DNA of 64,000 nucleotides from Bryum argenteum (Eukaryota; Streptophyta; Bryopsida; Bryales; Bryaceae): positions 496,001-560,000 of the forward strand of contig CM073326.1 in assembly GCA_037043015.1 (NCBI GenBank). The letters run 5' to 3'. Within the stretch, counting starts at the first letter, position 1. Every line of letters begins with the position of its first letter. Under the pieces are notes generated by a model. The model worked only from the letters and a program-made list of their open reading frames with translations. It made no database searches and was not told where the DNA came from. The translations under genes and the position numbers were made by a program. Positions 12,457-62,767 of this stretch are shown one piece after another.

Positions 12457-13798
12457 TTTAGCTCGAATCGAGCTAAACTAAGCTCCTGACAGTATGTAGA
12501 ATTGTCCTGGTTAAGAACGAGATACATAACACAAGATTACCCAATCTTAGAGTATGAAGTTTAGCTCGATTCGAGCTAAACTACAGGTTCGCATAGGCGA
12601 ATATAGGATTCTATTTAGTTTAGCTCGAGTCGAGCTAAACTATAGTATCCAACCCAGGCAAATTCTAACACAGTTTAGCTCGACTCGAGCTAAACTGTGG
12701 CACTAAATACTTTAAAATGAACCTAAATAGGAATACATTAAAAACGTATTGATACCTAAGTTTAGCTCAAATGGTAACTAAGTTTAGCTCGAATCGAGCT
12801 AAACTACACGTTCTCCATGTTAATAAATACAGTTTAGCTTGACTCGAGCTAAACTAAGGCAACCAAATCGCCTCAACTGTATTTCAGTTTAGCTCGACTC
12901 GAGCTAAACTGTGACCCTAAACCCAAACCAAACGAAACATAAGATTAATAATATCTAACCTTTGACTATAAGGTTTAGCTCGATTCGAGCTAAACTAAAC
13001 GTTTATATAAGATAATATTAACATATTTGAAGTTAAGCTCGAGCAGAGCTAAACTACAGCAGCCAGCTCGCAGCAACAGTAATTAAGTTTAGCTCCACTC
13101 GAGCTAAACCGTAACCTACATTAATTTGAATTTACCTGTGTTGAAATTGATAGTAAACTTGATTATAACTAACATTAAGCTATGAAGTTTAGCTCGAATC
13201 GAGCTAAACTAAATGTTCAAATAAAAGCAATAAAAATGAATAAAGTTTAGCTCGATTCGAGCTAAACTAAAGCTTCCAAGTCGATCATACTGGAACCCAG
13301 TTAAGTTTAGCTCGATTCGAGCTAAACTGAGTCCATTATAGATTTAGGATTAAACGTATATCTAAGAAGTTTAAGAAGTTTAGCTCGAATCGAGCTAAAC
13401 CTCATGTTCAGATGAGACACTTGCGAGCTGTTAAGTTTAGCTCGAGTCGAGCTAAACGAAGTTACTAACGCGCACATTCTCTAATCTGGTTTAGCTCGAT
13501 TCGAGCTAAACTGTGACACTTCGTATAGTATGCTAATTCAAATTAATCCATGGTCTAATAAGTTTAGCTCGATTCGAGCTAAACTTCATGTTCACATGAG
13601 AATTGCAAGCTGTTCAGTTGAGCTCGAGTCGAGCTGAACTTAGGTAGTAACTTGTACATACTGTAATATTGTTTAGCTCGACCCAATAACCCTTCTTATA
13701 TAACCTTAGTCAAGTAAGTTTAGCTCGATTCGAGCTAAACTAAATGTACACATAAGAGATTAAACAATTCTATCCAGTTTAGCTCGAGTCGAGCTAAA
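12457..13798. repeat. Palindrome array A2 (20 copies plus two half-sites)
   Basis: Copies of TTTAGCTCGA-N-TCGAGCTAAA start near 12457, 12560, 12619, 12674, 12783, 12833, 12888, 12974, 13032, 13088, 13188, 13246, 13306, 13379, 13436, 13490, 13563, 13618, 13719 and 13778. A few carry one mismatch (13032, 13088, 13618). Half-sites lie at about 12761 and 13672. Spacers of 35-80 bp are unrelated AT-rich sequence, although some spacer pairs are near-duplicates. The array fills the last part of the predicted 5' intron of gene A. Confidence 0.95.
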
Positions 13799-13864
13799 CT
13801 ATGGCAACGAACTCGCTCAGATTACTAATCTCAAAAATCTCATGACTACTGCAGTGAGCTGAGG

Positions 13865-15280
13865 ATGAAGGGCTTGCTTGGCCACTTCTTCAAGCCAAGG
13901 GCACCAGTGGTTGATGACGATGATGGCGATGATACCATGAACCTTGATTGCTACGAATTCAAGGACGCAACAAGGGTCAAAAGCTGGACAGCGCTCTGGG
14001 CTGCGCATACGTCACACCTTACGGTCGCGGTTAGCTACGAAGGGCCTATCGCTGAGCCGATGACAATCGATGTCGACACGAAAATCACAGAGCTTGATTG
14101 CGAGACACCGGAGGTGATCAAGATAATTTGCTCTTCTCCAGGGGTGACGCCTTATAACTTCACCATCGCCGTCAACACAGTAGCGACGCCCTTCGATTCT
14201 GTTGCAATGGTCGAGAGTTTAGAGGCATCACATTTCGACGAAGTCAAATCCACTCTCAGAGCTGAGATTCTTGATGGGAAGTGGAGGTCGAAGAACGATG
14301 GGCCGCTCAAAGCTAAAGCTCTGTCCTTCAAGCTCAGGAACGTCGTCAACTCCATCATTCAGGCATCGGTTGCAGCAAAAGCAAAACAAGTAGCTCAGCG
14401 ACCTCTCTTCGAGCGTTCAGGCCTTACCGGGACAGGGAGTCCCATAGATAGCAGGACCACCACACGAGTCCAGCCATCAACCCCCAGGGTAACATCCACA
14501 GGAGCGAATAGTTCTGGAACCCCTGGATTGTCATCGCCTCAAAAGAGAAAGTCGAGGAGACTAGCTGATGACGCGAGGCGCAACAAGCTCATATCCGAAG
14601 AGGATTTGGCGAACGCTATCAACGACGCCGTCTCAGAGATCCCTATGATTGTCGACAAGGTAGAAGACATTGACTACACCAACTGCAATGTCATCTACCA
14701 GAAATTCTTCTCGGACTGCCAAGACGCATTTGTCTTCGAAAATAATCCCCAGCGGAAACTGGAGATTGACACCATGAAGATGAAGGAAGCACCGGCGTCG
14801 TGGACAATCCGGGCCTTCGAGAAGAGGGGGCAAACCAGCCTCCTGAACTACCTCATCAATTTGCCGGACCGGTCACACAAGCAGACTCTGTGCGTCATGC
14901 CCGACTTGAAGTTCAAGCCCATCGACGAACGGGATATGACGGACTGCGAATTCTACATCATCAACGGCCAGCACAGCGTGGCTGCGTCGAAGGAGATGAT
15001 TCAGAAGGAAACCGTCCCCGAGGCTATCAAGAAGGACTTCCGGACTTGGAATGCGTACATAGTCTGGACTAAAGATGTGGACAAGCTGCGCAAAATTTCG
15101 GCTTTTTATAACAGAGTGAATCACTTCGCTCAGTTTAAGCCAACGTGGGCAACAAATATCCTTGCTGCTCGGAAAGTGTGGGTTGAGTTCGGGTGTCCTC
15201 CACCAAAACGCGATGCAACGGGGGTGGCAGGGCAACGAATAAAGCCAAAGCGCGCTGCAAGCCAAGCAGTCGCTTACGAT
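13865..15280 (+). CDS. Gene A exon: ParB/sulfiredoxin-like domain protein
   Basis: An uninterrupted 472-residue exon ending at a donor (TTACGAT then GTAAGC at 15281) in phase 0. Residues 1-170 are unassigned. Residues 175-240 are Ser/Thr/Pro-rich with a basic patch (QKRKSRR) that may be a nuclear signal. Residues 250-465 hold the recognisable core: a PIDERD segment, then FYIINGQHSVAAS at about 363-375, an IVWTKD strand and an NRVNHF motif. This order resembles the ParB/sulfiredoxin or DUF262 nucleotide-binding fold, where the loop is usually GEHR or GQQR. Here the Arg is replaced (GQHS), so classical activity is doubtful. Gene B has the same core with GQHT. I infer a DNA-associated role. I am fairly sure of the homology with gene B and moderately sure of the fold. 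Confidence 0.6.
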
Positions 15281-15630
15281 GTAAGCATTTCTGATCCACT
15301 GTGTCAAATGTTTAGCTCGAATCGAGCTAAACTGGAGATGCAGTTAAGTTTAGCTCGAATCGAGCTAAACACTACTGCATCTGCAGTTTAGCTCGACTCG
15401 AGCTAAACTGCACATGCAGTACTGTTTAGCTCGATTCGAGCTAAACTGCAGATGCAGTTCAGTTTAGCTCGATTCGAGCTAAAAACTACTGCATCTGCAG
15501 TTTAGCTCGATTCGAGCTAAACTTAATATGCTTTACTGTGACAACGAATCCCTTTGGTTTAGCTCGATTCGAGCTAAATCATATAGCCACCGTCGATACT
15601 TACTCGAATTACCTGTACTCGATTTTGCAG
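15281..15630 (+). repeat. Gene A intron with six palindromes at exact 38-bp period (array A3)
   Basis: Family A palindromes start at 15311, 15349, 15387, 15425, 15463 and 15501, each exactly 38 bp apart, with a seventh at 15558. The 17-bp spacers are variants of CTGCAGATGCAGT or its complement ACTGCATCTGCAG, so neighbouring spacers can also pair. The intron is bounded by GTAAGC at 15281 and an acceptor (CGATTTTGCAG) at 15630, phase 0 on both sides. Gene B has an intron at the same position in the protein. Confidence 0.9.
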
Positions 15631-16996
15631 AAATTTTTCGCGGCTGTAAGCGAGAGGTTCTCAATGATCGACGTTGTCAATCATCAGAGGGAACTAAACA
15701 GGAAGGGCGGCAAGAAATTGCTTACCCTTACTAACGAAATCAAGATCATCACTGCACCAGAGAGCCTGTATAAGCTCTGGGAATCAGTGATTACTTGCGC
15801 AGCCCAAGGAGACCTCGTCGACCCCGAGTCCATGGACGGATCCAAGTTCAAGTACAAGGAGGGCTTTATTCCGGACAAAGATACAACTCTCAATCGAGAG
15901 TTTTTTAAATTCCTTGGCAACCTCTCCGAGAAGGACCACGAGAAGCTCTGCAGGCACATCTTGAACGAGTCAGGGCCATCAAGGAAACTGAAATACCCGA
16001 AGGTTGTGCTCAAGCAGCCTAAGTCTCATCTCGAGGACTGCTACGTATGGAAGGATTACGTAGAACGATTGAAGCGCAAAGCTATCGCCCAGCTCCAGCT
16101 TCACAAGATCGATCCTACGCTCGGTATTTTCAAGGGCGACGAACTTGACGTCCAGGCGTGGAAGAATTTTAAGAAGGACTACCACGTCACGAAAGCGTCG
16201 AAGCGTGTGCTTCTCGAGTGGGGTGTTCCGGATTCATACTACGCCAACCAGAAGGCGACTATGCACCGGAATAGAAGCTGCGAGGATCTCTCGCCATACG
16301 CGAAAGAGTTCTTCCGCGTATTCCTAGAAGTACGAAAGAAATTCGAACCTACTGCTGGAATTGCTCATACTCGGTTCTTCCAAAGGGAGAACCCGATGAA
16401 GCTTAACGACTGGGAAACAGGTTCCTGGAGTAAAGAAGGCAAGGACATCAATTTCGGGATCATCGACTTCAGACTCGTTCCTGGAGCTTACGGAAAGGCG
16501 AAGTCTACTACCGAGAAACCGTTCTTTGAGATTTTCATGAACATTCTCGGAGACAAGATAAGCCTGCTCTCAAGGCCATTCTGTCTGGGGCGTTCATATG
16601 CGGGGATGAGAAGGACCTTGAGCATGTACAAAGACTTCGCCAAGACCAGTCCCTTCTTCAAGATGTGGAATACGAGTTGATCCAGTCCATTTACGAGCCT
16701 GCCGCCAACGAGCGTCTTGGAGGGTTTGCCGCGAAGAGTAGGCGGCACTCGGAGCCCGTGCGACTTCTCTTCCTCAAGCACACATCCGTGTGCATCCGCG
16801 GGAGATAAAATCCATCTACGCAGCCCCAAACACATTCTGATACGAGAAGCCCCGAAAGTACAATGAGGTGGAGTACAGCATGTTCCCCAACGAGCTGAGA
16901 ATGGAATTCTACCTCCAAGTCATCAAGCTTTTCTGCGGCCCCAATGAGTCTATCTGCCTTGTCTATTCCGGATCAAAAGCCGTTACAGCAAGCATG
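15631..16996 (+). pseudogene. Gene A exon: middle region and methyltransferase-like segment, frame interrupted
   Basis: The exon starts KFFAAVSERFS in phase 0 and is open for about 310 codons. The reading frame then changes near 16.56 kb, and a stop lies near 16.8 kb before the exon's end at the donor GTAAGA (16997). The homologous gene B exon aligns throughout, which shows the later frame is genuine. Two segments recall a beta-class N6/N4 DNA methyltransferase in circularly permuted order: GIIDFRLVPGAYG at the place of motif IV (DPPY), and near the end ICLVYSGSKAVTAS at the place of motif I (FxGxG). Both have lost key residues, so catalysis is unlikely. The exon could be damaged or mis-assembled, or translated with unseen splicing. 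Confidence 0.45.
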
Positions 16997-17404
16997 GTAA
17001 GATTCAGCCCAGTTTAGCTCGACTCGAGCTAAACGGGGTCATTACCCTTCCCTTCTCTGACATCATTGAAATCCAGTACGGTCTCCTCTGCTCGTACTAT
17101 AGTTTAGCTCGAGTCGAGCTAAACTATGTCTTTCCATGTCCTTGTAGCCTTATTTATTCCATACCTTGATTGCTTACTTGAGAGTGAAGTTTAGCTCGAA
17201 TCGAGCTAAACTCAATCAGTTGCATGCTTCCTGCACATGGATTCCTGCACATGAAGTTTAGCTCGAGTCGAGCTAAACTAAGTGATACCTCTGATTCTTC
17301 TGATTTCCTTCTATGTTATGAACTCGTTCATTTCCTTCGTAGCATGTAGTTTAGCTCGAATCGAGCTAAATAACTTTGTCTGACTTCTCATCATCGTCCT
17401 GCAG
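16997..17404 (+). repeat. Gene A intron with five palindromes (array A4)
   Basis: Family A palindromes start at 17013, 17103, 17190, 17257 and 17350. The intron is bounded by GTAAGA (16997) and an acceptor (TCCTGCAG, 17404). It sits inside the methyltransferase-like motif I region (AVTASM then MVASESY), at the position where gene B also has an intron carrying its own palindromes. Confidence 0.9.
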
Positions 17405-18283
17405 ATGGTAGCTTCTGAATCGTACGTCATAGCCGACAAGGACGACTCCGTTGACATACACCAGGCATATCAGATCGGTGTTAATCTTGACCCGAATGAC
17501 TTCAACATCAACGGATATCCTGTCGATGCTAATACCTTCCCAATCATCGGCAGAGCCCTCCTGAAGGGGAAAGCTAAGGTGGAAGCTGATGACGATAGTA
17601 TGAAGGGCGATGACGGTGAAGGAGAAGATGATGATGATGTGGAAGAAGTTGCCTCTAGCGCCGGGGAAGACGAAGCAGAAGGCAGTGCGCGCCTAGCAGG
17701 GTCGGCTGAGGTAGACGCCTCTCCTGCGCGGATCCGACAGCCCGATTTCCAGAACCTCCCGCAGGACAGCTCCGACAATCGGCGCAATACCCCGGAATCG
17801 CGTAGCGGTTCAGCGCGTGGCAGGGGTTCCGCAAGTCGAAAGCGGAAAGGCTCTGCAATGGCCAAGGAATCGCCGAAGTCAAGGTTCTCCGAAGCTGCGG
17901 TGATTTCAGAACTGCAGAAGAAACTTGAGGAAGAGCAAGCCGCGATTGTCAGAATGGCTGATGAGTTTCGGGCTCGCGACGCTCAGCGCGATGAGGAGGC
18001 AAGGAGAAGACACCTGGATATGATGGATATGTTTAGTAGAGCACTAAGTGGCTTAAATCCATCTGCACTTCCTCCTCCTCCTCTGCCTTCTGCAATTGCA
18101 GTGCCTAGTACTCAAAGTTTAGATGCAGGTACTTTCCATGGGGGGCAACGCCCTCTTCCTGACACTGCACCTCCAGCCACTGCTATCGTCGAGCCAGCAG
18201 CGCATCCACCTACGTCAATTCCGCGGAATACAGACTCTGAGGCTGAGGTGCAAGAGAATACCACAGGTCCCACTTCTTCTTAG
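17405..18283 (+). CDS. Gene A last exon: acidic and coiled-coil C-terminus
   Basis: A 292-residue frame. Residues 1-40 finish the methyltransferase-like fold (SYVIADKDDSVDIHQAYQIG). Residues 55-105 are strongly acidic. Residues 120-160 are Ser/Arg-rich with KRKGS, a likely nuclear signal. Residues 162-215 form a probable coiled coil (LQKKLEEEQAA, RDEEARRRHLDMMD). The tail is Pro-rich. A stop at 18283 ends the frame. A GT at 18129 offers an alternative donor that is phase-compatible with the exon at 18513, so a longer fusion with the downstream phosphatase-like gene is possible. Gene B ends with a similar acidic and coiled-coil region. Confidence 0.6.
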   Translation: MVASESYVIADKDDSVDIHQAYQIGVNLDPNDFNINGYPVDANTFPIIGRALLKGKAKVEADDDSMKGDDGEGEDDDDVEEVASSAGEDEAEGSARLAGSAEVDASPARIRQPDFQNLPQDSSDNRRNTPESRSGSARGRGSASRKRKGSAMAKESPKSRFSEAAVISELQKKLEEEQAAIVRMADEFRARDAQRDEEARRRHLDMMDMFSRALSGLNPSALPPPPLPSAIAVPSTQSLDAGTFHGGQRPLPDTAPPATAIVEPAAHPPTSIPRNTDSEAEVQENTTGPTSS

Positions 18284-18393
18284 ATAATGGGTATACTGTA
18301 TAGTTATTGAGTTGTAAAAACCGGTAGAACACTTTTTTTGATACAAACTCTCAAACATTTTTTTGTAATTAATACAGGCGTTACCACGTTCAT

Positions 18394-18414
18394 TTTAGCT
18401 CGACTCGAGCTAAA
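18394..18414. repeat. Single family A palindrome
   Basis: TTTAGCTCGA-C-TCGAGCTAAA between gene A's stop and the next exon (acceptor GTTGAACAG at 18512), therefore in an intron or 3' UTR. Confidence 0.9.
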
Positions 18415-18512
18415 TTGCCCATCAGCCACATAGGCATTCTGTTCGGATTCACACTCCTCCTTCCACCACACGTGTTTGCCTGATTTCAATGACCTTGTAT
18501 TGCGTTGAACAG

Positions 18513-19648
18513 ATGTAGAGGATGAGCATGAAGATATCGATACTCCGGTCATGGAAGATGTATTTGTTGATCTTGTTCGCCATGACTCGCATCCTCCCGA
18601 GGACACTCCCAATTACACTGAAGCATCGCTTCGCGGCAATGATCCTATTTTGGGTGATGATGTAGATTGCACCCAGCAGTCGCTAGGATCAATGGGCCTT
18701 CACGATGATGACGAGATGAGCAATGACGATATCCAGGTACTTTTCATCAATCCATTCTTATCTTTCGAGATCATCAAATATTTGTACTACAAGATGTTGT
18801 CTTTGAATTTATTAAACCTCTCGCAGAGAAACCTCAGTAATGTTGTCCTGCTGCGACGTGCTTGCTATCCAGGTTAGGAACGCCACGGTCTCTGAAAATT
18901 CTAGTGAAGAAATAGGTTTTATTCCAAGAGAGTCAGGCAAAGCTTGGTTAAATGTTGTCATCGACCTCAATGGGATCCTCTGTTATTGTTCCCCAACTTG
19001 GGAAGCTAAGGGATCCAGAAACCGTGACATCCAAGTACACTCGGCCGCGGTGCCAACTGAGGTGGGGAAGAAACTTGTGTGGGTAAGGCCCGGTTGTAAA
19101 GACTTCCTCTCCGGGTTGGCAGCGTTCGCCACTATCACGGTTTGGAGTTCTATGATGACAACAACGACTCAAGCAATTTGTGATTATCTCTTTGGTCCGA
19201 TAAAACCTATTAAGCCATTACGAATTCTCGGTCAAGAAGATCGTGATAGAGTGCCCGTGCGGAATGTTGGGGGCGAACTATCTTCATGAAGGAACCAGGA
19301 ACCCAAAAGATATTTTCCTTAAGACCATGTCCGCCCACCTTTTTAATAGCTATGATGGTCTATATACGAGAGGCCAATACTCTCTTTATTGACGATAGTC
19401 CGATTAAGCACATGTTAAATCTTAGTGAGAATGTTCTTTTACTGCCTTCGTGGACTTCCAAGGTCAATAGGGCTGAAGAGGACTCCGTTTTACTAGACGA
19501 GATTTTGCCATATCTCATAGAGCTACACGAGTTCCCAGGATCACTCAAGAAGTACCGCACTTCCCATCTTTTTGGGCGTCCTATGTTTTACGATGATAGA
19601 ACAACTTGTTCTATATATGCTGACATCCTAAGGGCCATGTCAGATTAG
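18513..19648 (+). pseudogene. FCP1/SCP-type HAD phosphatase-like gene, catalytic Asp lost
   Basis: Exons at 18513-18736 (acidic leader) and from 18873 (acceptor CTATCCAG) are both phase 0. The second carries WLNVVIDLNGILCYC, KLVWVRPGCKDFL and ITVWSSM, and later NTLFIDDSPIKHMLN. This is the motif order of NLI-interacting-factor/FCP1-like phosphatases, which dephosphorylate RNA polymerase II C-terminal domain or other nuclear proteins. The usual DLDxTL is DLNGIL here: the nucleophile Asp is kept but the general acid Asp is Asn, so it is probably inactive. The frame changes between about 19.28 and 19.39 kb, where one frame reads NPKDIFLKTMSAHLF, as expected for the family. There is either an unrecognised intron or damage. 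It lies just downstream of gene A on the same strand. Confidence 0.6.
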
Positions 19649-19965
19649 CAACGATTCTATTCTTCTTGCCTACTGAGTGCTGTACATCCAGTTTTGTTTT
19701 AGTTTTGTATTTTTTCACGCTGATTTCGTTTTTCCTACATTGTAATTATCAAGTTTTGTTTCCTGTATAGATCAGAGTGAAGTGTAAATAGGAGTCTAAT
19801 TTTGAATATTTTATGTTCTGAATGAGCTCAACTAACAACTGTTTATCTGTCGATTATCGTGTCAATCATTTATAATAGGTTCCACAGGGGGGTTGTCGTG
19901 CTTCGGTAGATTCGTTTATCAATGGGGAGGGAGTAGGGCCAACACTCCGGAGTAGAGGTCTATTA

Positions 19966-20682
19966 ATGCAGTCAGCTGCAACGGCTCAGTCAACTATGGA
20001 TTTCTCTACCATGGCTGTGGACGATGGAGTGGTAAACAGTCCCGTGGCGACCTGTCAAGTACGTGACTTGGATAAGTCGCCTTCGCCCGTGAGGTCACTT
20101 TCAGTAGGTCATAATGTTAAACAGACCGAGAATAGATGTGGGCGAACCAATCGCGTGTTGTATGACGAGGTCGACGTTACTCAAGATTTGTCACCAAAGG
20201 TTAGTTTTCTTCTCTCTTTCGAAGGATTGTTACCGATTTCGCTGTAATCTGTGCTATGAAAATGGTTTTAGGTTCCTAAAGTATGAAGTACATTGCTTTT
20301 CTTACGAGAGCTTATTTTAGCTCGAGTCGAGCTAACTTCGGTGTCCGCGCAAGATACATGAATAGGTATGTTACACGATTGTAATCTCCTTAATTTGCGG
20401 AATTGATATCTAAGACGAAGTTGAATTCATTATGTGCAGGAAGGACCTTCAGAGCCCCAGTGCCCTCTTGGTTTTTCGACAGATGTAAAAGAAGCGACTA
20501 GGAGCCTTTCCGAAACGCGCCGCCACTCACTTCCTAAATCAAGCATCGAGGATAATCGAAGACGACGGTTGCAACGACTGCTGGATAGCCCTATGATGCA
20601 AGATAATGATTACGGATGGACACGTCAGCGTCAACGTGCGTTCATAAAGTCTCGTATCATCGCATATGGTGGAACGCCTTAG
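19966..20682 (+). CDS. Small two-exon gene, unknown function
   Basis: Exon 1 (19966-20199, 78 codons) ends at GTTAGT. Exon 2 (20440-20682) begins after TATGTGCAG. Both are phase 0, giving about 158 residues. The product is Ser/Arg-rich and hydrophilic with basic stretches (DNRRRRLQRLL, TRQRQRAFIKSR) and no recognised domain. The intron holds one family A palindrome at 20316. It might instead be the 3' exons of the phosphatase-like gene, since an acceptor-like TTCCACAG precedes exon 1. Coding status rests on the matched splice phases. Confidence 0.4.
20316..20336. repeat. Last family A palindrome
   Basis: TTTAGCTCGA-G-TCGAGCTAAC, with one mismatch, within the predicted intron 20200-20439. No further copies were found to the right in the window. 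Confidence 0.85.
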
Positions 20683-21033
20683 GTAGTGATAGCTGAATTA
20701 CTTTTGAATACAATGAATAAACTATGTATTAATTACTCTTTGAGTAATTTATCATATATAAAGTTCGGATATTTCAATAATATTCTCAAACTCCCCTCTT
20801 ATACTATGGCTTTTGTGTCGATTTGCACTTTCCAACAACACCTCGCATTCAATACATGTGCGAAACTCACGTTTATAGCATCTTCCTATCATATTTTGGT
20901 TATCAAGTCATTTAAATTGTACAATTTACACGCCAATTGTACAGCTTTTAGGCCTTATAAGTCCCTTTCAATCTCCCAAAATCCTGCATATTTCCCAATA
21001 TAACGAATACGAGGTTAGAAGTTCAAGCTTGAA

Positions 21034-22323
21034 ATGAGAGATCTCATGATAGAAGTGCTTCAGCATCCGAAGTGGGTAGCAGAGACAGAGAAACGAGGGT
21101 TCATGTGGTTTTTGGAGAATAGGGTGAAGGATGCACTCTGGAATCCCAAGGTTGTAATAGCCAAATATGGAAGGATATTTCGGGAGGGTGATGAGGATTT
21201 CGTTGACGTGGTGAATAGGGCTGATTGTTTTTCAGCCCAAATGAGGGCATTTTCAAAGAATTCACACCGTCGAGGCTCTGGAACATGGTGGCAATCGCTA
21301 GAGGGACGACAAACTCAAACCATGCGATTGACTCATTTGGTTACCATTCCGGATACAGCTCAAATCATACGAGTTGACGACACGAGGTTGAAGGGACGGT
21401 ATGGTACTATTGTCAAAGTTCGCTTCGAAGGTGTTGCAGGCATTGAACCATTTTGGGAATTTGCTGCAAAAACTTCCATTCACCACTTGACACGACTGGA
21501 GTTGGCGAAATTGGAGCATATGAATGAGTCTATGGCGATAAGGATTGGACACCCGGGTGTGATCCGCTTTGTGGCCATTCATCCAGTGAAGAATCAAGGC
21601 TATGCGTTCTGGTGGAATGGCGGGACTATTCGAGAGATGCTGAACCGCGATATGGATTATGGTGACGATGTCTTTGTACATTTGAACTTTGGGAATTCCC
21701 CTGACGACGAAGTTATTCGGGCGCATCAACTGATTCGATTCCGTAAAAAACGGACAGAGCTTGCTTGGGCGTTGTTGCATATCATGAACGAGGTCCACAA
21801 GAGCCACCACCTCCATAATGATATATCTCCAGATAATATCCTTCTCCACTTCCCCGCTGATGAATCACGAGTGTATATCGGAGTATGCGATTGGGGCTTC
21901 TCCACAACGGTTCAGGAACCAATGCAATCCCTTTATACATTTACAAAACGTGAGGAGATGGTGGAGACCCTGCGAAAACGTTATTGGGTAGATCCACGAG
22001 TGGCGTTCTTGTACAAAGCGGGTGAGGATTTACAAGTTATTCCAAAATACTCGATTGCTTCGGAGGAGTTTGCCACGGCCCGCATAGCACAAAGAATTAA
22101 TGGGATGACCATGTCTACGTCGTACGAGAGCTTGCAACGTGGAAACCGAAATACTTCGGTATTCTCCAATGAAGACCTTCCACAAGCTTTCCATCTTTAC
22201 ATGGATAGAGTATGCAACGACAGCCGTGACGGCGCTGGAGGGTTGTCCCATATCATCTCACGGTTTAGCAATATGTTTCATTGGCCTACGCCTCGTGAGC
22301 ATTTTCGGACGAATTACGAATAG
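21034..22323 (+). CDS. Protein kinase-like gene, left element copy, intact
   Basis: A 429-residue frame. Residues 1-100 are unassigned and Trp/Arg-rich. The kinase fold covers about 105-400: glycine-rich loop LKGRYGTIVKV (120-130), VAIK-type Lys in FAAKTS (K146), catalytic loop HNDISPDN (261-268, Asp and Asn kept, Arg replaced by Asn) and DWG in place of DFG (286-288). The metal and phosphate-transfer residues are present, so activity is plausible but the family is atypical. An acceptor-like GTTAG lies 18 nt before the ATG, so an upstream exon may be missing. A second copy, truncated, lies at 50939-51364 in mirror orientation. It is convergent with the repeat-protein gene at 23530-25131. Confidence 0.7.
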   Translation: MRDLMIEVLQHPKWVAETEKRGFMWFLENRVKDALWNPKVVIAKYGRIFREGDEDFVDVVNRADCFSAQMRAFSKNSHRRGSGTWWQSLEGRQTQTMRLTHLVTIPDTAQIIRVDDTRLKGRYGTIVKVRFEGVAGIEPFWEFAAKTSIHHLTRLELAKLEHMNESMAIRIGHPGVIRFVAIHPVKNQGYAFWWNGGTIREMLNRDMDYGDDVFVHLNFGNSPDDEVIRAHQLIRFRKKRTELAWALLHIMNEVHKSHHLHNDISPDNILLHFPADESRVYIGVCDWGFSTTVQEPMQSLYTFTKREEMVETLRKRYWVDPRVAFLYKAGEDLQVIPKYSIASEEFATARIAQRINGMTMSTSYESLQRGNRNTSVFSNEDLPQAFHLYMDRVCNDSRDGAGGLSHIISRFSNMFHWPTPREHFRTNYE

Positions 22324-22329
22324 GAGAAC

Positions 22330-25264: not shown

Positions 25265-25580
25265 ATCGGGGCGGTCGGCATTCGCCTGTTCCCCCGGCCG
25301 TCCGATCTCGGTCGGCGGCGATCGATTCGCCATCGGTCGGCTGGATCGGTCGGCCAATCCGATGGCCGCATTGGCGATCGATCTGAGCCGCCCGATCGGT
25401 CGACAGATCCATCGCGCGTCGCGTCGGATCCGGCCGTCCATCGCGTCGATCGATTCATCACGCAGCCAAGCGACGGATCCGACGGCCGCCGTCCGACGGG
25501 GTCGCGAGGGCGGTCGCTGGCCGTCCGATGCGGTCGCCGGCCGTCCGATGCGGTCGGCCGTCCCCCCGTCCGGTCGGCAG
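25265..25580. repeat. GC-rich CGATCGG-type island upstream of P2
   Basis: CpG-dense low-complexity sequence with CGATCGG, CGGTCGGC and GGCCGTCCGATG permutations. It ends abruptly at a T-rich tract (25586-25650). Confidence 0.8.
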
Positions 25581-43364: not shown

Positions 43365-43760
43365 TCTCCAAATTCCTCCGGTTCATTGGCCCAACCGCTC
43401 TCGGCTTTGATGGCCTCATTATCCAAGATATCGTAGTGCAACTCATGTCTCGCTCCTTTTGGTTTCACTCTCTTTGACGGTGTCTCGTGTAAAACCAACT
43501 CGGTCCCACCAATCTGCGTTTGTGGTTTTTCATTGCGGTGACCTCAAGGTTTGTTCGATCACCTCCATGTTCGTGTTATCGGTATCCGTCGCCATGAAGA
43601 GTAAGGAGTATTTAAAATACCCCAAAAATATCCCAAGTACGCAAAAATTCGATGCGCGACCCGCAAAGTATCACGCTGACTTCCCCCCGCCACCACAAAT
43701 GCAGCACACGAGAAGCTAATGCCCACGGTTGCAGCTCAGTTGAGATGGTTGAATACAAGG

Positions 43761-45229: not shown

Positions 45230-46004
45230 CCTCCACTTCGGAGTCCATGGATCTTTAGGGGTTAAGAAGGAATATTTTAACAATAATAAATTAAGGTGTA
45301 CAATCAAAAGCATGGTCTTTAATTAATAATAAGAATTGACCCCTTTGCCTTTGCTTTCCTTAAAAACAAGGGCATTAACTCTCAATGCCTTCACAAATGA
45401 GAAAATTGACCACACTATATTGATTGTTAAATGTTTACTTCGATTCTAGCCAATTGAGCACAACAACTCAAAAAGTGAGTGTATTGGCGTGAAGATTTGC
45501 TCGCCTTAACTCCCCTTCAAGAAAGTCCATTACTATGGATATATTTAAAGCCAAAAGTATCTTTGTCATAAAACATTCTCGCGTGGGACAAAAAGATATT
45601 CCCGACATTCTCTTGTCAGAAAATTCCCTGTCCATATTTAGACGCCACGTGGAGCATAAAGACTAAATATAGTAGTTTTGAAAATGCAGGTGTGCAAGGC
45701 GAGGAAGTGATTGAAGCTGTGCAAAGGGGGAGTTTGGGAGAGGCAAGAGGAGGAGGGGGAAGGGGGGACGCGGAAGGACCGACCGACCGACCCGGGGGAC
45801 GTGGTCGGTCCCCACGCCGGTCGGCGGTCATCGGGCCGGTCGCCGGGCCCGACGCCGGACGCCGGTCATCGGGCCGGTCGCCGGTCATCGGGCCGATCGC
45901 CGCTGCCCGACGCCGACGCTGGGGCTGTCGCCGGCCGGGCGATTCTTGGCCGCCGGGCCGGTCGACCGCCCGCCCCATGGCGGCCAACTAAAATGGGGCC
46001 AAAG

Positions 46005-51364: not shown

Positions 51365-52531
51365 AACCTCAATTCCGTTAAAATGGCAATATTCCGGTAA
51401 AATGGCACACTTTTGGGGTGAAAAAATGAGGAAATCATGAAGAGATATACGTAAAATGGGGACGTTGTGGGGATAATATGGAAAAAAGGGAGTCATTTTA
51501 GCAGAATTGTCAAGCCAACACCAGAAAACATAGAAGGAATTTGGCCAAAAATACCAAGATTCAACTGAGATTCGATGCAAAGCATCGAAAGTTTGTGCAG
51601 TATGCACGAATTATCAACACATTATTGAGAATCATCACCAGAGTATTGAACTCGCAAATGAATCAACACACACTACCGGAACTTTCAAGTTCTCGCTTTC
51701 CTTATATAAATGGTATTGCACCTCCCCTCCTCTATCCTATAATAACACCCTCCATCGAATAAGTCACCACACAATGTATCGTAGAAGAATTTCGCAAGAA
51801 CAAGGTGAATTCCAACACATTCTTGAGGATCATTTCATCATCAGCGTTTCCGAACTGCAGTCCTGAAACATTATTACACGGTACTAGAACTTTCAATCTT
51901 TATTTCCTAATATAAGTGCTACTACATCTTCCTCGCTTCCTCCTCGAAGTACATCTTGTACTCCTACTTACAAGGACGTTCTCTCATAAAACAACTATGA
52001 ATGATCACGGATGTCGAAGTGCATTGGTTGCAAAAGATCGTCCGCCCTTGCGAAGAGTGCACTTCAACAATTGGATACAGCACAGGTGTCGAATGTAGGA
52101 ACCTCCTTATGACTAATCTACCCTACACCATTCTTACCTACCGAGTGATAGATGGAGAGGATCTAAAGAAGGACGCTTCTCGCTGAGCGACGGCAAAGTC
52201 GAGGGATCTCAAGACAAATACTATGCAACCTCCTAGGCTCGCAATGAATCTTTATTATCCGGAACTCGTACTTGAGGCTTTTGCTTCCACAACCCATGTT
52301 TCACCGACAAACAAACGCAAGAGTGATACGACAGATGAATCTCCTTTTTCCCCTTAGTTTCTTTGGTGGATTCCCCCACATCCGTGTATCGCTTCATCGT
52401 TCCCGGCCCGTTAGTCCATGCTCCTCGACGAACTTCGCCCCCTTGCGATTCTTCCCTAAGTGTTGGGGCTAAAATTGATGGGTAGAATGCAAAAATAATG
52501 CATTTGACAAAGCCCCTTTCAACTTTCTATT

Positions 52532-52620
52532 TTTATTTCCCCTTCAATTCATACAATCTACCCCGCACATGACATGCGGAGAGGAATGAAACGAAGGGGA
52601 AATAAAAGTAGAGAGTCAAG
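52532..52620. repeat. Small inverted repeat in the foldback centre
   Basis: TATTTTTATTTCCCCTTC pairs imperfectly with GAAGGGGAAATAAAAGTA about 40 bp later. A hairpin of about 20 bp arms. Confidence 0.7.
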
Positions 52621-52698
52621 GCCATGGTACGCATTTAAATATGTTCGAGTTATCTCTTGTGATGTATAAAATTCATTGATTCATGCACCGAAAGAGAT

Positions 52699-52798
52699 NN
52701 NNNNNNNNNNNNNNNNNNNNNNNNNNNNNNNNNNNNNNNNNNNNNNNNNNNNNNNNNNNNNNNNNNNNNNNNNNNNNNNNNNNNNNNNNNNNNNNNNN
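52699..52798. other. Assembly gap (100 N)
   Basis: Exactly 100 unknown bases, a typical placeholder, located between the arms of the foldback element. Confidence 0.99.
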
Positions 52799-53639
52799 GG
52801 AGTACAAGATGTACTTCGAGGAGGAAGCGAGGAAGATGTAGTAGCACTTATATTAGGAAATAAAGATTGAAAGTTCTAGTACCGTGTAATAATGTTTCAG
52901 ATGCGAGTTGGAAACGCCGATGATGAAATGATCCTCAAGAATGTGTTGAATTCACCTTGTTCTTGCGAAATTCTTCTACGATACATTGTGTGGTGACTTA
53001 TTCTGATGGAGGGTGTTATTATAGGATAGAGGAGGGGAGGTGCAATACCATTTATATAAGGAAACAGAACTTGAAAGTTCCAGTAGTGTGTGTTGATTCA
53101 GGACTGCAGTTCAATACTCTGGTGATGATTCTCAATAATGTGTTGATAATTCGTGCATACTGCACAAACTTTCGATGCTTTGCATCGAATCTCAGTTGAA
53201 TCTTGGTATTTTTGGCCAAATTCCTTCTATGTTTTCTGGTGTTGGCTTGACAATTCTGCTAAAATGACTCCCTTTTTTCCATATTATCCCCACAACGTCC
53301 CCATTTTACGTATATCTCTTCATGATTTCCTCATTTTTTCACCCCAAAAGTGTGCCATTTTACCGGAATATTGCCATTTTAACGGAATTGAGGTTAGAGT
53401 CTTTGTGCATCCCCTCTTGCAAAGGGATACCCTTGCCCTGCAAGGCTAAAACATAAGTTGGGACTAGAAACGTTTGTGGGTTTGGTTGTTTTAGCACTAA
53501 TTGTCTTGGTCACTTCACAGAATCCCTGGAACGATACACGAGTCACCTGAACACAGGTTTTACACCAATAAACGTGTAAGGGAAGATAAAGTGAATACAT
53601 GGCATCCGACACCTCTTATGTCCCACCTTCCAAAACAGA

Positions 53640-55979: not shown

Positions 55980-58320
55980 AAGGTGATAGGCACACCATTC
56001 CACCTGAAGTGGTTTTAGGGGATACACCGGTGTTGAGGGCTTAGGGGGTTTACACCTGCATAACTAAACTGGGCTACCCCCGTGTAAGACACCTTTAGTG
56101 TACACACTGTTGTAAATAGGACGGGTCAGCCCAACACAATAGTAGTGGTGTTTAGGGGCTACACTGGTTTTACACGGCTAAAGATCACACCATCACACCT
56201 ACACTGCACGGTGCTACACCAGTGTAACACATATTTTGATACTCCTCCATTTGAGGGTCTAGGGTTCGCTTTTCTTTTTATAATTTGGGTTTAGCGTTTA
56301 CTTATATATACAATAAGCGATCGATAATTTTGTGGCCTGCGCACATGAGCATGTTTAGGGCTGGCGAGAGCCTGGCTAGGGCCCGCTATTATTTGACATA
56401 GGCCTGGCGCTGCCCTGTCTGATCCGTGTACTGCGGTTTTAGGGGCCAGCTTTAGGTGACCCCCCCCCTCCGTCGCCCTCAGCTCCCACCCCCGTTTTTA
56501 CTCCCCGTCCAATCCTATTACTCCCCATCCAATCCTATAATCCCCCTCAGCACCCCCCTATTACCCCCGAGCCCCCCGTTTCATCCCTCCCAGACCTTTG
56601 AATTACCCACCAGCCCCCCGTTTTACTTCCTAGCACCCCCCCTGTTTTACCCCCGAGCCCCCCCCCCGTATTTCCGCAACCCCCCTCCCGTATTACGCTC
56701 AGCCCCCTCCGTAGTACCCCCCGCCCCGCCCCCCCCCTTTACTATCCCCAGCCCACACCCCCGTTCAATCCCCACCCTCTCCCGTTCTTTCCCCAACGCC
56801 TCGATTTATCCAGCAGCCCCTCCCACCCCTCTTTATTATCCCCAGCCCACACCCCCGTTCAATCCCCACCCTCTCCCGTGCATTCCCCAGCGCCCCGTTT
56901 TATCCAGCACCCTCCCCCCTTCGTCCCCGTTTAACCCCCTAGCCTCGCCATTTTATCCTTAGCCCCCAATCTTATGCTAATAGAATAATTAATTAATATA
57001 AATTAGATAGGTACCATATTTATTGAGTAAGTGTGTCGGTAAGAAAATGATGGGAAGAAGTTGAATTTTTTATATCTGGAATTACTAAATATTATCAAGT
57101 GAATGTGAGAGGGAGAGCGATGTTTTAATTTTATTGGGTAATTGATGCCATACACATGGCCGAGGTCACACTGGTGTATCTAGGTTTACGAGGGTTTAGG
57201 GTTTTTCGGGGTTTAGAAATTTATGCAACTACACCATTACATCCCCTCTCCGAGGGTGTCACACCGGCCTAATTCGTTCGAGGGTTCCGCACGTGTCGAA
57301 GGCCTTAATACACAGTAATGTTTTTCGCACTCGCTCGTGAATGGGTACACCGTCGCACTTCCGGCAGAAGAGTTCACACCGGTGTTACTCCTCCAATACA
57401 AATGCACGCCTACGCTATCCCCACGAAAGTAGTCTACTTTGCTCGAAAGCGGATGAGCACACCATCACACCTCCCTCAGAAGGGGTGACACCGGTGTAAC
57501 TACTCCTACAGGAATGCAGCGTTCTCCACGGTCTTTACATAGTCATAGTTTCCCCACGCAGGTTCTTCACGGGGGTGTAACACACCCCCAAACGAATGCA
57601 CTCATATAGGTAGTCCGCACGGAAGTAGTCAACTTTGCTCAAGAGTATCGGTTTAGTACACCATCACACCCCCCTTCAGAGAAGGTGTGACACCGGTGTT
57701 TAGCCACCTGAAGTAGAGCACGTTCTCCACGGTCATTACGCAGTCATAGGCGTTGGAGGTGGGTTTTAATGTCGTACTTCTGCGGCTACACCATGACACC
57801 CTCCCCTGGGAAGGTGTGTCGCCGGTGTCCCTCCACCTGCAGCAGCAGAGCACGTTCCCTCCAAGCTGATTACACAGTCACAGGCGGTTTTTTAGGGTGG
57901 GTTTTGGATTGTACTTGTACGGGCTACACCGTGACACCCTCCTACGCGAAGTTGTGACACCTGTGAAATTTGTACTACAAGGGTGCATGTCTCCGATGCT
58001 TTATATAGTGTGACTGATTCCTGCACTCACTCTTGGGTTTTTGGGTATACACCATCACACCTCCGTCGAAAGGGTTTACACCGGTGTAACATGTCCCTCC
58101 CCCCCATTACGAATGCAGACGTGTAGGGTAGTCCTCATGGTATTACAGGGTTTTTTTGTGTGTTGAGGGTTTAGGGTACACCATCACACCTCCTCGACAA
58201 TGGGGTGACACCGGTGTCACTCCACCTGTAGCAGAGAGGTTCTCTCTCCACGGTGATTACACAATCATAGGCGGTTTTTAGGTGGGCGGTTTGTAGGATT
58301 GTACTCCTACGCTTACACCA
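55980..58320. repeat. Second ACACCGGTGT repeat domain
   Basis: Diverged modules of about 130-200 bp hold ACACCATCACACC, then GGTGTGACACCGGTGT, then CCACGGT and TAGTCATAGGCGG blocks. The clearest run is 57340-58320. The core GTGACACCGGTGTCAC appears in full at about 58207-58222. It has the same core as the array at 45-1010. Part of the domain (56456-56960) is the C-rich tract. Confidence 0.8.
56456..56960. repeat. C-rich low-complexity tract
   Basis: Imperfect repeats of CAGCCCCCCGTTTTACCCC-like units about 20-30 bp long. The G-rich complement has quadruplex potential. A 168-residue proline-rich ORF over it is an artefact of composition. Confidence 0.85.
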
Positions 58321-58332: not shown

Positions 58333-58445
58333 ATAACCTCAATTCCGTTAAAATGGCACCATTCCATGTGCCATTTTAGCGGAGCTAAAGTTCCACATTG
58401 TGCGGAATGGCCATTTTAGCGGCATATGTTGTTATATTTTTAGAA
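58333..58445. mobile_element. Short terminal-like segment shared with the foldback element
   Basis: AACCTCAATTCCG plus TTAAAATGGCA is identical to the foldback's outer end. It is then followed by its own inverted subterminal motifs (GCCATTTTAGCGG, GGCCATTTTAGCGG, GTTCCACATTGTGCGGAA). It is either a tiny MITE or one end of a larger element that could enclose gene B. Confidence 0.55.
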
Positions 58446-58489
58446 CTGTGGTGCGGTTGGTAATTGGGAGGACTAGTTGTTGCTCTTTA

Positions 58490-58712
58490 ATGTCACATGA
58501 ACTCCGAAATGTCACACTATCTTTGTACTATCACATGCACTCTGTAAATCTGTAATATCACACGAATTCTATAATATCACACTATTTCTATAATATCACA
58601 TTCATTCTGTAATATCACACTATCTCTGTAATAACACACTATCTCTGTAATAACACACTATCTCTGTAATATCACACTATCTCTGTAATATCACGCTATC
58701 TCTGTAATATCA
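58490..58712. repeat. Minisatellite (TCTGTAATATCACACTA)
   Basis: About ten copies of a 19-20 bp unit, TATCACACTATCTCTGTAA, ending 50 bp before the gene B start. The first copies are diverged. Confidence 0.9.
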
Positions 58713-58762
58713 CCCAAATCCCACTGCGTCTTGTATCCAAGAACAGTACCTGGTCCGTCGAA

Positions 58763-60588
58763 GTGCATGATGGAGATGGATCTCCCTACTTCACTCTTTG
58801 CCTTGGCTTTAAAAACGCTGAGGGATCTCATAAGTGGCGACAACTCAGACTGATCACAGTGATTGGAATGCATCTCCGCGAAGGTCACATCTTCCTCGAC
58901 GTTGTTAACATGGATGTAGGAGTCACTGGTTGCATCATTCTCTATCCCGAAGACTGTGCAGAGTTTGACGTGTACTATCTACAGATATCCTCGGGGCTAC
59001 TGACGGATTTAAACTACAGAACATCCTGCGAAGCATTCCTTCAAAACAAACTTGAGCTAATCAACCCAGGCGATTGGTTGCAGAAGTACAAGGAATTACG
59101 TGTCTTCATCAACAGCGACTTCAAGACCGCCAAGGGGGTAATCAGGAAAGCAACAGAGCTGCAGGCGAAGCGCTTGCAGAGGAACTCTTGTATGTCTCCT
59201 CATCCGACCAGTGATTCTACTCCCTCCTCGACATCCAAGGGCAAGGAGGTTGTGCCTCTGTCACCACAATCCACATCCAGTAGGGCAGCGGATCATCGAA
59301 GAACTCCTCCTCCGACAATGGACACTCCGTCCACGCCCGTCGAAGAAGGTTTGGGGACTCGCTACAGAGGTGAATCTCGCAATGCCCAAACCGATGCAAG
59401 GCAGTCGATTGGATCTGCAAGGGATCCGCCCACGACGCCAGCCAGTGCGCCTGCCGCAGGAAATCGTAGCCGCCCTCCTGCTCGATCTGGTTTACCCGGA
59501 GCAGGTACAATGCCCCCACCGCGTACCGTGTTTCAGAGAAACGACTGTGTGGCCGACATTGTCCTAAACGAGTGCGACAGTGGAGAGGACGTCGGAACTC
59601 AGGGCACGGAGGCGACCGCTGCCGCTCCCACCCGTAAAAGGGCCCGTGACAAGGTAAAGGTGTCAAAGAAGAATAATTCTAAGAGGAAGAAGGCGACTAA
59701 AGCGGAGAGAGGGCACTCCAGCGAGGCAACGGAAGAGCCAATGCGGGAAGCTAGCGAGGAACCTGCAGCTGAAATCCCCGAAGAACTCGTGACGGTCGTC
59801 GACGAGGCAACCGCTTCGATTACCGCGGTGAAGAAGACCTCGATGGGGACGTATCTAAAAGGTGGCAGATGGAGCGAGTACCAAACACGCTTCCGTTCAA
59901 CCCGGACATGGTTCCGGATAAGTTGTCTGTGAAGATGAAGACGAAGAAAAAGGCTGCGGACAAGGCATAAGAGCTTCAACTGTACGAGGAGCTCCAAGGA
60001 CATGTAACGGCAAACTTAATGTTCAAGAAAAACGCCGAGTACATGTACATCTTCGGTCAAGGGCGGTACTTCTAGCTGGAGGTCGGGGACATGGAAAAAT
60101 GTGATCCAAAGTCCGGGAGGATCTACAGGCCTTTGGAGCAAGCAGACGTTGCTGCAGTCCTAAAGAACATGGTCACTCTGCAATTCAACAAGCAAATTCT
60201 GACTGTGATGCCAAACACATCGACGAGGCCCAAGAGCTGGTTGGACTCCGTAAGAGCAGGTCCTTTTTGGATCATCAACGGCCAACACACTTGGGCAGCG
60301 GCTAAACGTATACTTGACGGACATATCAAAGTCAGTGATAAGAGCATCAAGGACCGGCTCAAGATATGGACGTGCGAGATAGTGTGGTCGGATAACACAT
60401 CACACTTGCACACGCTGTCGTACAAATGCAACGATGGCAACGACGAGCAACCATACCTGACGTCCGCTCCTGCGACTGTAATGCACCTCCGCGAAATCTG
60501 GTGCAACCATCTCCGACCCAAGATGTGCAGAAAGAACATGAAGTACGCCAAGGGATCGGAAGAAGAAGCGCAACATCTGGCATATGAG
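58763..60588 (+). pseudogene. Gene B N-terminal exon(s): ParB/sulfiredoxin-like paralogue of gene A, frame interrupted
   Basis: Open from MHDGDGSPYF for 389 codons (58763-59932), then in pieces to 60588. The first 130 residues are unassigned. A Ser/Thr/Pro-rich linker and a basic patch (KKNNSKRKKATKAERG) follow. The core is in the frame from 60091: MPNTSTRPK, then GPFWIINGQHTWAAAKRI (about 60253-60310) and EIVWSDNTSHLHTLSYKCN. It aligns with gene A's FYIINGQHSVAAS and IVWTKDVDKLRKISAFYNR. The Arg expected after GQH or GQQ is Thr here. At least two interruptions lie between 59.87 and 60.08 kb. The exon ends at a donor (CATATGAG then GTACGA, 60589). Confidence 0.5.
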
Positions 60589-61118
60589 GTACGAATGCTA
60601 TCATCATCTTACTTTGGCCCTAACATGAAATGTTTCTGGGTGGCCGCCCAGAACTAATTCCTCTTCATGTATAGCTTCAAGCTCTAAGATGAAATGTTTC
60701 TGGGCGGTAGTCCAGAACTAGTTATTCTATATCTGTAGCCTCAAGCTCTAACAAGAAATATTTCTCGGCGGCCGCCCATAACTATTTCTTCTTTTACAGC
60801 AGCTTCAACTCTATCAAAAAATGTTTTTGGGCGGCCGTCCAGAACTAGTTCCTCTTTCTCTGTAGCCTCAAGCACTAACAAGAAATATATTTTGAGGCGC
60901 CCGCCCAAAACTATTTCTTTTTGAACAGCAGCTTCAGATTTATCGAGAAATGTTTCTGGGTGGCCGCCCAGAACTATCTCGTATTCTGAAGCCTATAACT
61001 ATATCTTCGTTTATTGCTTATTACGAAAGTTCCTAGCTGAAACAATCAAAGCTTCTGGGTTAGACTGCAGTAGCGTGTGTTTACAATCCAGTGCCTTCTG
61101 ACATGTGAATCTGTGCAG
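60589..61118 (+). repeat. Gene B intron with six palindromes at about 64-bp period (array B1)
   Basis: Copies of TGTTTCTGGGCGG joined to CCGCCCAGAA(A)C start near 60631, 60695, 60759, 60822, 60888 and 60951. Each has a roughly 40-bp related spacer (TAGCCTCAAGCTCTAACAAG-like). Some carry one to three mismatches. The intron is bounded by GTACGA (60589) and an acceptor (TCTGTGCAG, 61118). The position in the protein (HLAYE then RFKEQ) equals that of gene A's 38-bp array intron (AVAYD then KFFAA). Confidence 0.9.
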
Positions 61119-62507
61119 CGCTTCAAAGAGCAAGCCATCGAGACTTTGGAGTCCGCTGGAAATGCGAAGAACAAGAAGGGGGAGACGCAGAGCATCGTCT
61201 TGAATAGCCTTGGAGAGATTCGGCTCGTGATGTCATCAGATGCAGCGTATGCCAAGTGGGTTCAGGTCTTCTTGAAGTACCAGACACTTGAGCTCCACGA
61301 TTCCGACACAAAGCAGCCGTTGAAGGATCTGCGGGACGACAGGGGAATCAAGATCAAGTACCCTCACTTCGAGATCTCGTCGACGTTCTTGAGACCTCTC
61401 GTAGGTCTTGATGATTCTCAACTCGAACTGCTGGCAGACCACATTCTGGCGGATGATCCCAAGGTCTACCTTGGGATAATGAGGCAGCAATTTCCAAAGA
61501 TTTGGACCCGGGCCCAACGGATGCAATCGTGGATCCAGAGGAAGAAGTTCAAAATTGTGATCATCAAGATCGTGATGGGAATGGTCATGAAGAACAAGAA
61601 CTCGAAGGTGACACAAGTCATCCCCTCCGACGCGTTCGTCCCACAATTTTGGTGGGTAGCGAAGAAGTACCCCAGCGTCAGCACATTCCACGTCGACCAT
61701 GCCATGCGCGTGGTTGGGAAGGACTGGCTGAAGATTCAGATCACGCAAGGGAAGAACAGGACCCCCTTGCCTCCGGCAGGCGACAGCGTGGTAAGGATGA
61801 TGCTGAACAACCGGGTGCGTCACATGATCACTTTACAGGCAGCGGACCATTCCTTCAGGATATGAAAGAGCGATCAACGGATGTTCTCCAACAATCACTT
61901 CTGCTGGCGTGGGGGCAAGGTATTTCTGTACGACCAAGGCCCCGCCATTGTCAACATGTGCGAGGTTGGCATCCTCGACTTCAGGATGCTGCCGGGTCTC
62001 GGAGAAGAGGTATCCTTGCACCAAGGATACGACGTGTACATGAGCAGCTTGGTCGATCTTCTCTCAGAACACTTCGATGAAGTCGCCACTTGGATGTTGA
62101 TCTATTCGCGACTAACAGAGGACTCTGTAAAGAGGATCGTATCCAAGTACTTCCCCAACCGCACAAATCACGCAACGGTACAGTACAAGGCCGGCAAGGG
62201 CGAGCCTCCTCAGAACACAAAAGAGGAGATCCGGATCTTGTACGTCCAGACCGTGGATAGGAGAGTTAAGACGTGTGACCAGATGGTGGAGGAGGAAAAT
62301 ATTACCGAAACCCCTCGATTGAATGAGCCGGACTCAGAATTGGAACCACTGGACGAAACCGCCGACAGCATCGAGACCTATCGCAGCGATCATAGGCATT
62401 TCGTTGCGAGGTGCGAGGTTTACATGAACTTCTTTGACAAATACTGCAGACCCAGTGGATCGGTGTTGCTGTACTTCTACGGGCTCAAAGCATTGACGGC
62501 ATGCGCG
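61119..62507 (+). pseudogene. Gene B exon: middle region and methyltransferase-like segment
   Basis: It begins RFKEQAIETLES and aligns with gene A's KFFAAVSERFSM exon throughout. One in-frame stop near 61.86 kb separates two open parts (61119-61865 and 61881-62507). GILDFRMLPGLGEE stands where DNA methyltransferases have motif IV (DPPY). The exon ends in VLLYFYGLKALTACA, where motif I would be, just before a donor (GCG then GTAAGT, 62508). Key catalytic residues are absent, as in gene A. Confidence 0.5.
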
Positions 62508-62767
62508 GTAAGTGCCTCCTTACCATTGATGTGAATTTCCTTCACTACCCCGCTTATTTCTGGGCGGCCGCCCAGAAACATTTGTCTCTCGCTTTGTTCT
62601 GCCTGCTCTGCATAGCGGTTCGATAGAGCAGTATGCACACATCCCCTTGCATTCTCTATCGCGCAATGTTTCTGGACGGTCGCCCAGAAACATTCGACCA
62701 TCGCATTCAATCAAATGTCTGCGCTGAGGACTATACGTTCTGACTTGTTTGTGCGGCCCTTTTACAG
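62508..62767 (+). repeat. Gene B intron with two perfect family B palindromes
   Basis: Copies at about 62555-62580 and 62667-62692. TGTTTCTGG...CCAGAAACA is preserved over 26 bp, and mismatches (ACGGTCG versus GCGGCCG) sit near the centre. The intron position matches gene A's 16997-17404 intron. Confidence 0.9.

Follow-up and report, generated by a model that had tools for sequence, protein, structure and literature searches.

Palindromes confined to an inverted-repeat transposon of Bryum argenteum, and their possible role as self-recognition sites

The 64,000-nucleotide stretch of Bryum argenteum DNA analysed here (GCA_037043015.1, contig CM073326.1, positions 496,001 to 560,000; hereafter the window) contains two paralogous genes, A and B, which carry different palindromes in the same two introns. 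This raises the question of what these palindromes are and to which unit of DNA they belong. For gene A the unit could be identified: the gene is cargo of a DNA transposon with terminal inverted repeats (TIRs), named element A, inside which all accepted copies of its palindrome (family A) were found. It is possible, with a probability of about 45%, that two related TIR DNA transposons of a plant-like nuclear genome each carry one of these genes as cargo and that the family-A palindrome is a self-recognition site read by a protein of the element itself, nearest to the VANC anti-silencing of VANDAL elements, in another type of transposon. The sample behind this reading is two elements (n=2, A and B), and its scope is the window. 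The window is eukaryotic, with GT-AG introns, AAACCCT arrays and one 100-N assembly gap; no tRNA or Rfam families were found within it.

The two genes and their shared introns are located as follows.

13865-18283, forward strand: gene A, with exons 13865-15280, 15631-16996 and 17405-18283, from open reading frames (ORFs), alignments and splice borders
15281-15630, forward strand: first shared intron of gene A (GT..AG, phase 0), with 7 family-A palindromes, six of them at exact 38-bp spacing
16997-17404, forward strand: second shared intron of gene A (GT..AG, phase 0), with 5 family-A palindromes whose flanks have no detected mutual similarity
58670-64000, forward strand: gene B, start uncertain and incomplete at the window end, from ORFs and alignments
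60589-61118, forward strand: first shared intron of gene B (GT..AG, phase 0), with 6 imperfect family-B units of about 64-bp period (63-66 bp)
62508-62767, forward strand: second shared intron of gene B (GT..AG, phase 0), with 2 near-perfect 26-bp family-B palindromes

An earlier note on this DNA had claimed that genes A and B are homologous with two common intron positions, that a different palindrome occupies these introns in each gene, and that the first intron of both holds a regular six-copy array. All of this was borne out. The core exons matched by blastp at E=9e-14 (25% over 177 amino acids), the exon ends before the second shared intron at E=6e-6 (12 of 31 residues identical), and both introns lie directly 3' of matched exon ends. 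The further statement that the genes align across several exons stood for the core exon and the end of the next exon. The intervening stretch of the latter was marginal (E=0.067), the middle piece of the second exon of gene A showed no similarity to gene B (E=33), and when the N-terminal parts and the last exons were compared as whole pieces, nothing was detected. As assembled, the coding frame of gene A contains two frameshifts and one TGA, all in the middle exon, and that of gene B one frameshift together with TAA, TAG and TGA. At 12001-12394, 5' of gene A, candidate short coding exons with splice-like edges were observed; they could belong to gene A as 5' exons or form a small gene of their own.

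The window was scanned for the family-A palindrome, TTTAGCTCGA-N-TCGAGCTAAA, allowing up to 6 mismatches in the 22 specified bases, and 50 places were obtained. The only one outside element A (45433, 6 of 22 mismatches) was dismissed as chance. All 49 accepted copies lie inside element A, to which the family is confined within the window, and none of them overlaps an assigned exon. Because 33 of the 49 match all 22 specified bases, an origin of the family by chance is excluded. Besides the 7 and 5 copies in the shared introns of gene A, copies were found at these places:

5467-6314: 15 family-A palindromes 5' of the DUF7869 gene (scan); judged by eye, possibly the first intron of that gene, with a donor near 6441 and an acceptor near 5322
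12456-13799: 20 family-A palindromes immediately adjoining gene A on its 5' side, arranged as a higher-order array of three phases (scan); by eye, a candidate branch point and acceptor mark its end, shortly before the ATG, and it is possibly a 5' intron
18393-18415: lone family-A palindrome in the interval that separates gene A from the NIF-like gene (scan)
20315-20337: family-A palindrome with 3 mismatches in an intron of the NIF-like gene, at about 20200-20439 (scan)

No copy lies in 6315-12455. Counted from the left end of element A, the first full palindrome comes after 3,449 bp, and one copy (that with 3 mismatches) is situated 679 bp from the right end. A single exact half site was also observed at 2078-2087, 60 bp inside the left end. 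The idea of one palindrome family per gene is not supported: the copies also lie 5' of the DUF7869 gene and at the NIF-like gene, and the unit is the whole transposon. The same note's idea of a selfish unit with its own family of dyad-symmetric sites did hold, in the form of a TIR transposon enclosing all 49 copies; the inverted-repeat ends enclosing genes A and B had been missed.

The boundaries, insertion site and other gene content of element A are given below.

2018-21016: element A, a TIR transposon of 18,999 bp, recognised by its TIRs, target duplication and restored empty site
2018-2041, forward strand: left TIR, AACCTCGTATTCGTTATAATGGGA, 24 bp, with 23 of 24 bases identical to the right TIR
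20993-21016, reverse strand: right TIR, an inverted copy of AACCTCGTATTCGTTATAATGGGA ending at 21016
2014-2017, forward strand: left target-site duplication AGAA, 4 bp, flanking element A
21017-21020, forward strand: right target-site duplication AGAA, 4 bp, flanking element A
1836-2017, forward strand: 5' part of the interrupted target gene, residues 1-61 of a kinase-like ORF, from the flank reading and the joined-flank ORF
21021-22323, forward strand: 3' part of the interrupted kinase-like ORF (Pkinase E=3e-5, under the Pfam cut-off)
2441-5320, reverse strand: DUF7869 gene, candidate transposase (Pfam PF25273, E=2e-33, and ORFs), with an in-frame TAG at 3728-3730
18512-20683, forward strand: NIF (CTD-phosphatase-like) gene (PF03031, E=8e-9 on 18891-19286), exons by eye

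When the flanks of element A were joined in silico, the empty site gave an open kinase-like ORF of 494 amino acids. Because the interrupted gene remains open on both sides, the insertion of element A is suggested to be recent. The element carries three genes: the DUF7869 gene on the minus strand, gene A and the NIF-phosphatase-like gene. Pfam searches with the DUF7869 pieces gave DUF7869 and a sub-threshold DUF6492 and no known transposase domain. Assignment of the DUF7869 protein to a known transposase fold found no support: its PDB sequence search was empty up to E=1, and a single-sequence fold model reached a predicted local distance difference test (pLDDT) score of 35, too poor for use. 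In the NIF-like gene, DLNG stands in the place of the usual DxDx motif. A nested element was looked for in the AT-rich part (6300-12460), and the inverted repeats there were unconvincing.

Conservation along the family-A palindrome ends sharply: arm positions 1-10 are conserved at 96-100%, positions 11-12 at 82-83% and positions 13-25 at only 28-58%. The centre base is A in 11, C in 12, G in 14 and T in 12 of the 49 copies. In this edge and its free centre the palindrome resembles a protein site of two-fold symmetry. Duplicated array units were compared in five pairs selected for recognisable spacers, gapped positions being excluded (5 in arms, 67 in spacers, 1 in a centre). Differences affected 8 of 289 aligned arm bases, 103 of 456 spacer bases (Fisher p=9e-16) and 9 of 13 centres (p=6e-4 against the spacers); the compared array pairs have common ancestry, and p values are guides only. 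The family-A arms are under constraint, with the caveat that gene conversion rather than selection could explain their conservation.

This caveat leads to the first rival explanation, in which the palindromes are kept uniform by copying (cruciform or strand-switch repair, or very short gene conversion that corrects the arms and flips the centre), with no reader and with functionless arrays. Change of the centres above the spacer rate is what such copying would produce, as is the type of change. Among 24 successive same-phase pairs the centre base was identical in 9, complementary in 10 and otherwise different in 5, complement swaps being 10 of 15 changes against one third expected (binomial p=0.0085). 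The phases of the array 5' of gene A were first read off by eye; in a subsequent shuffle test, the observed separation was reached in 0 of 2000 shuffles. The eight pairs outside that array comprised 4 complement, 2 other and 2 same. Position 11 also covaries across the arms (40 of 49 paired against 34.2 expected, permutation p=0.003), with the reservation that several of the copies concerned belong to a single array. At positions 1-10, however, no copy has a complementary change on both arms, and the sole both-sided change (13617) is not complementary. Moreover, correction within a palindrome cannot by itself keep one sequence across separate regions, such as the five copies of 16997-17404 with their dissimilar flanks, and copies are missing from 6315-12455 and from the assigned exons. 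On balance, copying in place of a reader is considered unlikely.

For gene B, one end of a second element was observed, and this element B extends past the window end. A small element with the same end sequence lies to its left.

58335-58358, forward strand: left TIR of element B, AACCTCAATTCCGTTAAAATGGCA, both ends of the foldback element repeat its first 23 bases exactly, and 17 of 23 match the TIR of element A
51365-53395: small foldback element of about 2 kb with the element-B end sequence, a 100-N gap inside and no clear family-B palindrome

The 23-base end of element B at 58335 is AACCTCAATTCCGTTAAAATGGC, and gene B starts about 0.4 kb inside it. The place immediately 5' of gene B, which in gene A is taken by the array of 20 palindromes, is occupied by a 19-bp tandem array of TCTGTAATATCACACTATC (58549-58713). 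The foldback element has arms of about 600 bp which are 97% identical, adjoins a kinase-gene fragment and has no target duplication (flanks ATAC and AGAG). A match to the family-B 26-mer inside it, at 51845, has 8 mismatches and was dismissed as chance.

All 8 family-B copies lie in the two introns of gene B (6 and 2). The palindrome family claimed for gene B stood for the two copies of intron 2, with 12 of 13 and 11 of 13 arm pairs complementary. It did not fully stand for the six units of intron 1, where 7-9 of 12 pairs are complementary and 88 windows of the background in 58335-64000 reach 7 or 8 of 12. The symmetry between the palindromes of genes A and B is real in position and unequal in strength, family B being the weaker.

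The nature of the encoded proteins was approached by profile and structure searches. When the exon pieces of genes A and B were scanned with Pfam, no family exceeded the threshold, the sole sub-threshold match was 'Frey' (E=0.11, last exon of gene B), and no methyltransferase domain was matched; NCBIfam and PADLOC gave no match for the supplied pieces. PHROGs gave no match for gene A and two sub-threshold matches for the gene B core, namely phrog_34821 (function unknown, E=0.056) and the ParB-like phrog_1033 (E=0.26, over an INGQH motif). The order of motifs, judged by eye, is similar to that of the ParB/sulfiredoxin fold; the AlphaFold model built on the two-sequence A/B alignment reached a pLDDT of 35 and gave no confirmation. 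It is this INGQH motif that hints at a link to ParB. An identification of gene A as ParB or methyltransferase, as the earlier note had labelled these genes, is not supported: Pfam, NCBIfam, PADLOC and PDB sequence searches of the supplied pieces returned no supporting match. ParB-parS systems have arrayed parS or sopC sites; at this locus, too, short dyad-symmetric sites lie in arrays next to a gene that has a ParB-like INGQH motif. The systems differ in that here no ParB profile above threshold, no structural support and no ParA match was obtained for the scanned element pieces, and the element is nuclear. The bacterial REP/RAYT systems likewise tie a palindrome family to one gene lineage; here no Y1 transposase was matched in the scanned pieces, the host is eukaryotic and the sites stay inside the element in the window.

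Searches for relatives gave little. In the viral contig collection no relative of gene A, the gene A core or the DUF7869 pieces was confirmed, and the exact family-A palindrome had 0 matches. A core alignment search of the genome contig collection gave 43 pattern matches, none of which was confirmed as a relative. Among phage proteins the gene A core had no relative up to E=1, and a match of the gene B core to a phage terminase (E=9) was judged to be chance. Plasmids, searched with the gene B core only, contained no relative up to E=1. No report of such an element was found in the open-access literature searched.

The nearest described system is found in Arabidopsis. There, VANC targets occur as tandemly repeated units within introns of VANC21 and VANB21 and also upstream of VANA21, the transposase gene, and VANC6 targets carry motifs differing from those of VANC21 (PMC5735166). 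VANC proteins bind short motifs, leading to loss of DNA methylation in their own VANDAL family (PMC5735166; PMC10398659). The logic is the same as that proposed for genes A and B, and the earlier statement that no such system had been described was too strong. In both systems the genes for the factor lie in the element and have related paralogues; a private motif recurs within the introns of the element's genes and upstream of these genes (in element A 49 copies, with none elsewhere in the window); and this motif differs between related elements (here elements A and B only, n=2, with family B weaker). The systems differ in several respects. No DUF1985 or DUF287 was found in Pfam scans of the gene A and B pieces, and by this protein test the gene A protein is no member of the VANC family. 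Nor did Pfam find a Mutator-like element (MULE) transposase in the scanned pieces, the DUF7869 pieces matching what is given above. The site here is a 21-bp palindrome with a free centre, whereas the VANC site is YAGTATTAY, and the ends are 24-bp TIRs with a 4-bp target duplication. For VANDAL, binding and anti-silencing are described; for element A they are proposed.

Because the layout of element A resembles that of VANDAL, the palindrome may be read by an element-encoded factor which marks and expresses its own kind. We infer both the function of the palindrome and the identity of its reader, which would be a dimeric protein, most likely the gene A/B product, that recognises the palindrome as DNA. 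This protein would coat the non-coding parts of the element's genes, namely the 5' regions and introns, and the coating would keep the element's own kind expressed through anti-silencing or self-regulation, as VANC does for VANDAL. Each lineage of elements would then drift toward its own pair of site and protein. Arrays would expand by tandem duplication with the arms held constant, and the central base, being unread, would change freely, often through strand flipping. A wider proposal is tentative and on the doubtful side: that this is a second, independent origin of sequence-specific transposon self-recognition outside VANDAL/MULE, in AACCTC-ended DUF7869 elements whose fast-diverging, possibly ParB-fold proteins each read their own 21- to 26-bp palindrome in introns and 5' regions, and whose palindromes are physically worked on, flipping the centre.

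Several observations weigh against self-recognition, in addition to the gene-conversion caveat. Just two elements were observed, one of them incomplete. Family-B arms in intron 1 of gene B are only a little more conserved than their spacers (mean pairwise difference 20.7% against 32.4%), the units there are partly not palindromic above background, and the 5' region of the gene holds the 19-bp array and not family-B palindromes. The 6-kb AT-rich part and most of the terminal regions of element A are without a full palindrome, whereas VANC21 also binds terminal non-coding regions (PMC5735166). Gene A has no recognisable DNA-binding domain in the scanned pieces (Pfam, NCBIfam), its structure model has a pLDDT of 35, and no VANC-type Pfam domain was found in it. 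Finally, stops or frameshifts interrupt genes A, B and DUF7869 in the assembly.

The palindromes could instead be cis-acting transposition sites, like the TnpA-bound subterminal repeats of CACTA elements, which we regard as quite unlikely. CACTA elements bear family-specific motifs near their ends that are capable of forming palindromes and are bound by an element protein (PMC2613891). En/Spm and Tgm are, like element A, large plant DNA transposons with repeated family-specific sites, those of Tgmt* being palindrome-capable. Such a role would fit two sites of element A, the copy with 3 mismatches at 679 bp from the right end and the exact half site at 60 bp from the left end. Yet 3,449 bp separate the left end from the first full palindrome, and the sites of element A are mostly internal, intronic or 5' of genes where those of CACTA are subterminal. 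The foldback element with element-B ends has no clear family-B palindrome (one match, with 8 mismatches) and is a derivative that apparently managed without them (its 100-N gap being unread). The termini, AACCTC with a 4-bp duplication, also differ from CACTA with a 3-bp duplication, and no Tnp2 domain was found.

Hairpins in intron RNA, helping splicing or feeding small-RNA silencing, are scarcely likely as an explanation. Introns of gene A hold 12 copies and a NIF intron 1, both 5' arrays are perhaps intronic as judged by eye, and a hairpin is possible in any transcript spanning the palindromes; but RNA structure permits compensatory drift, and positions 1-10 are near invariant with no compensatory pair. 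It is very improbable that the palindromes are tiny mobile units spreading into non-coding DNA, like the mobile short palindromic hairpin elements described for organelle genomes (mitochondrial hairpin elements among them), since the arrays grew by tandem duplication, as their homologous flanks and their phases indicate, and no accepted copy lies outside element A.

Other features were observed in the window. A third palindrome, ACACCGGTGT, is present in 27 exact copies, in a tight array of 24-26 bp spacing within 1-960 and in a looser set at 56024-58217, just left of element B. Pieces of a hAT-type transposase (DUF659, Dimer_Tnp_hAT) lie at 37532-39803, flanked by a RING-finger-like gene in a diverged inverted duplicate of about 70% identity (31185-35013 and 40237-43465). 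GC-rich repeats of the GGTCGGCC type occur at 1373-1562, 25510-25556, 36274-36617, 45806-45923 and 48525-48734; those at 1373-1562, 25510-25556 and 48525-48734 are upstream of ORFs that have a related copy in the window.

If the palindromes of element A are indeed read by a protein of the element, family-specific self-recognition of transposons would have evolved more than once, and the co-divergence of a DNA-binding protein with its site would become testable across natural element families. In the free, strand-flipping centre of otherwise near-invariant palindromes, palindrome metabolism or the action of an enzyme has left a trace that can be read in a nuclear genome.

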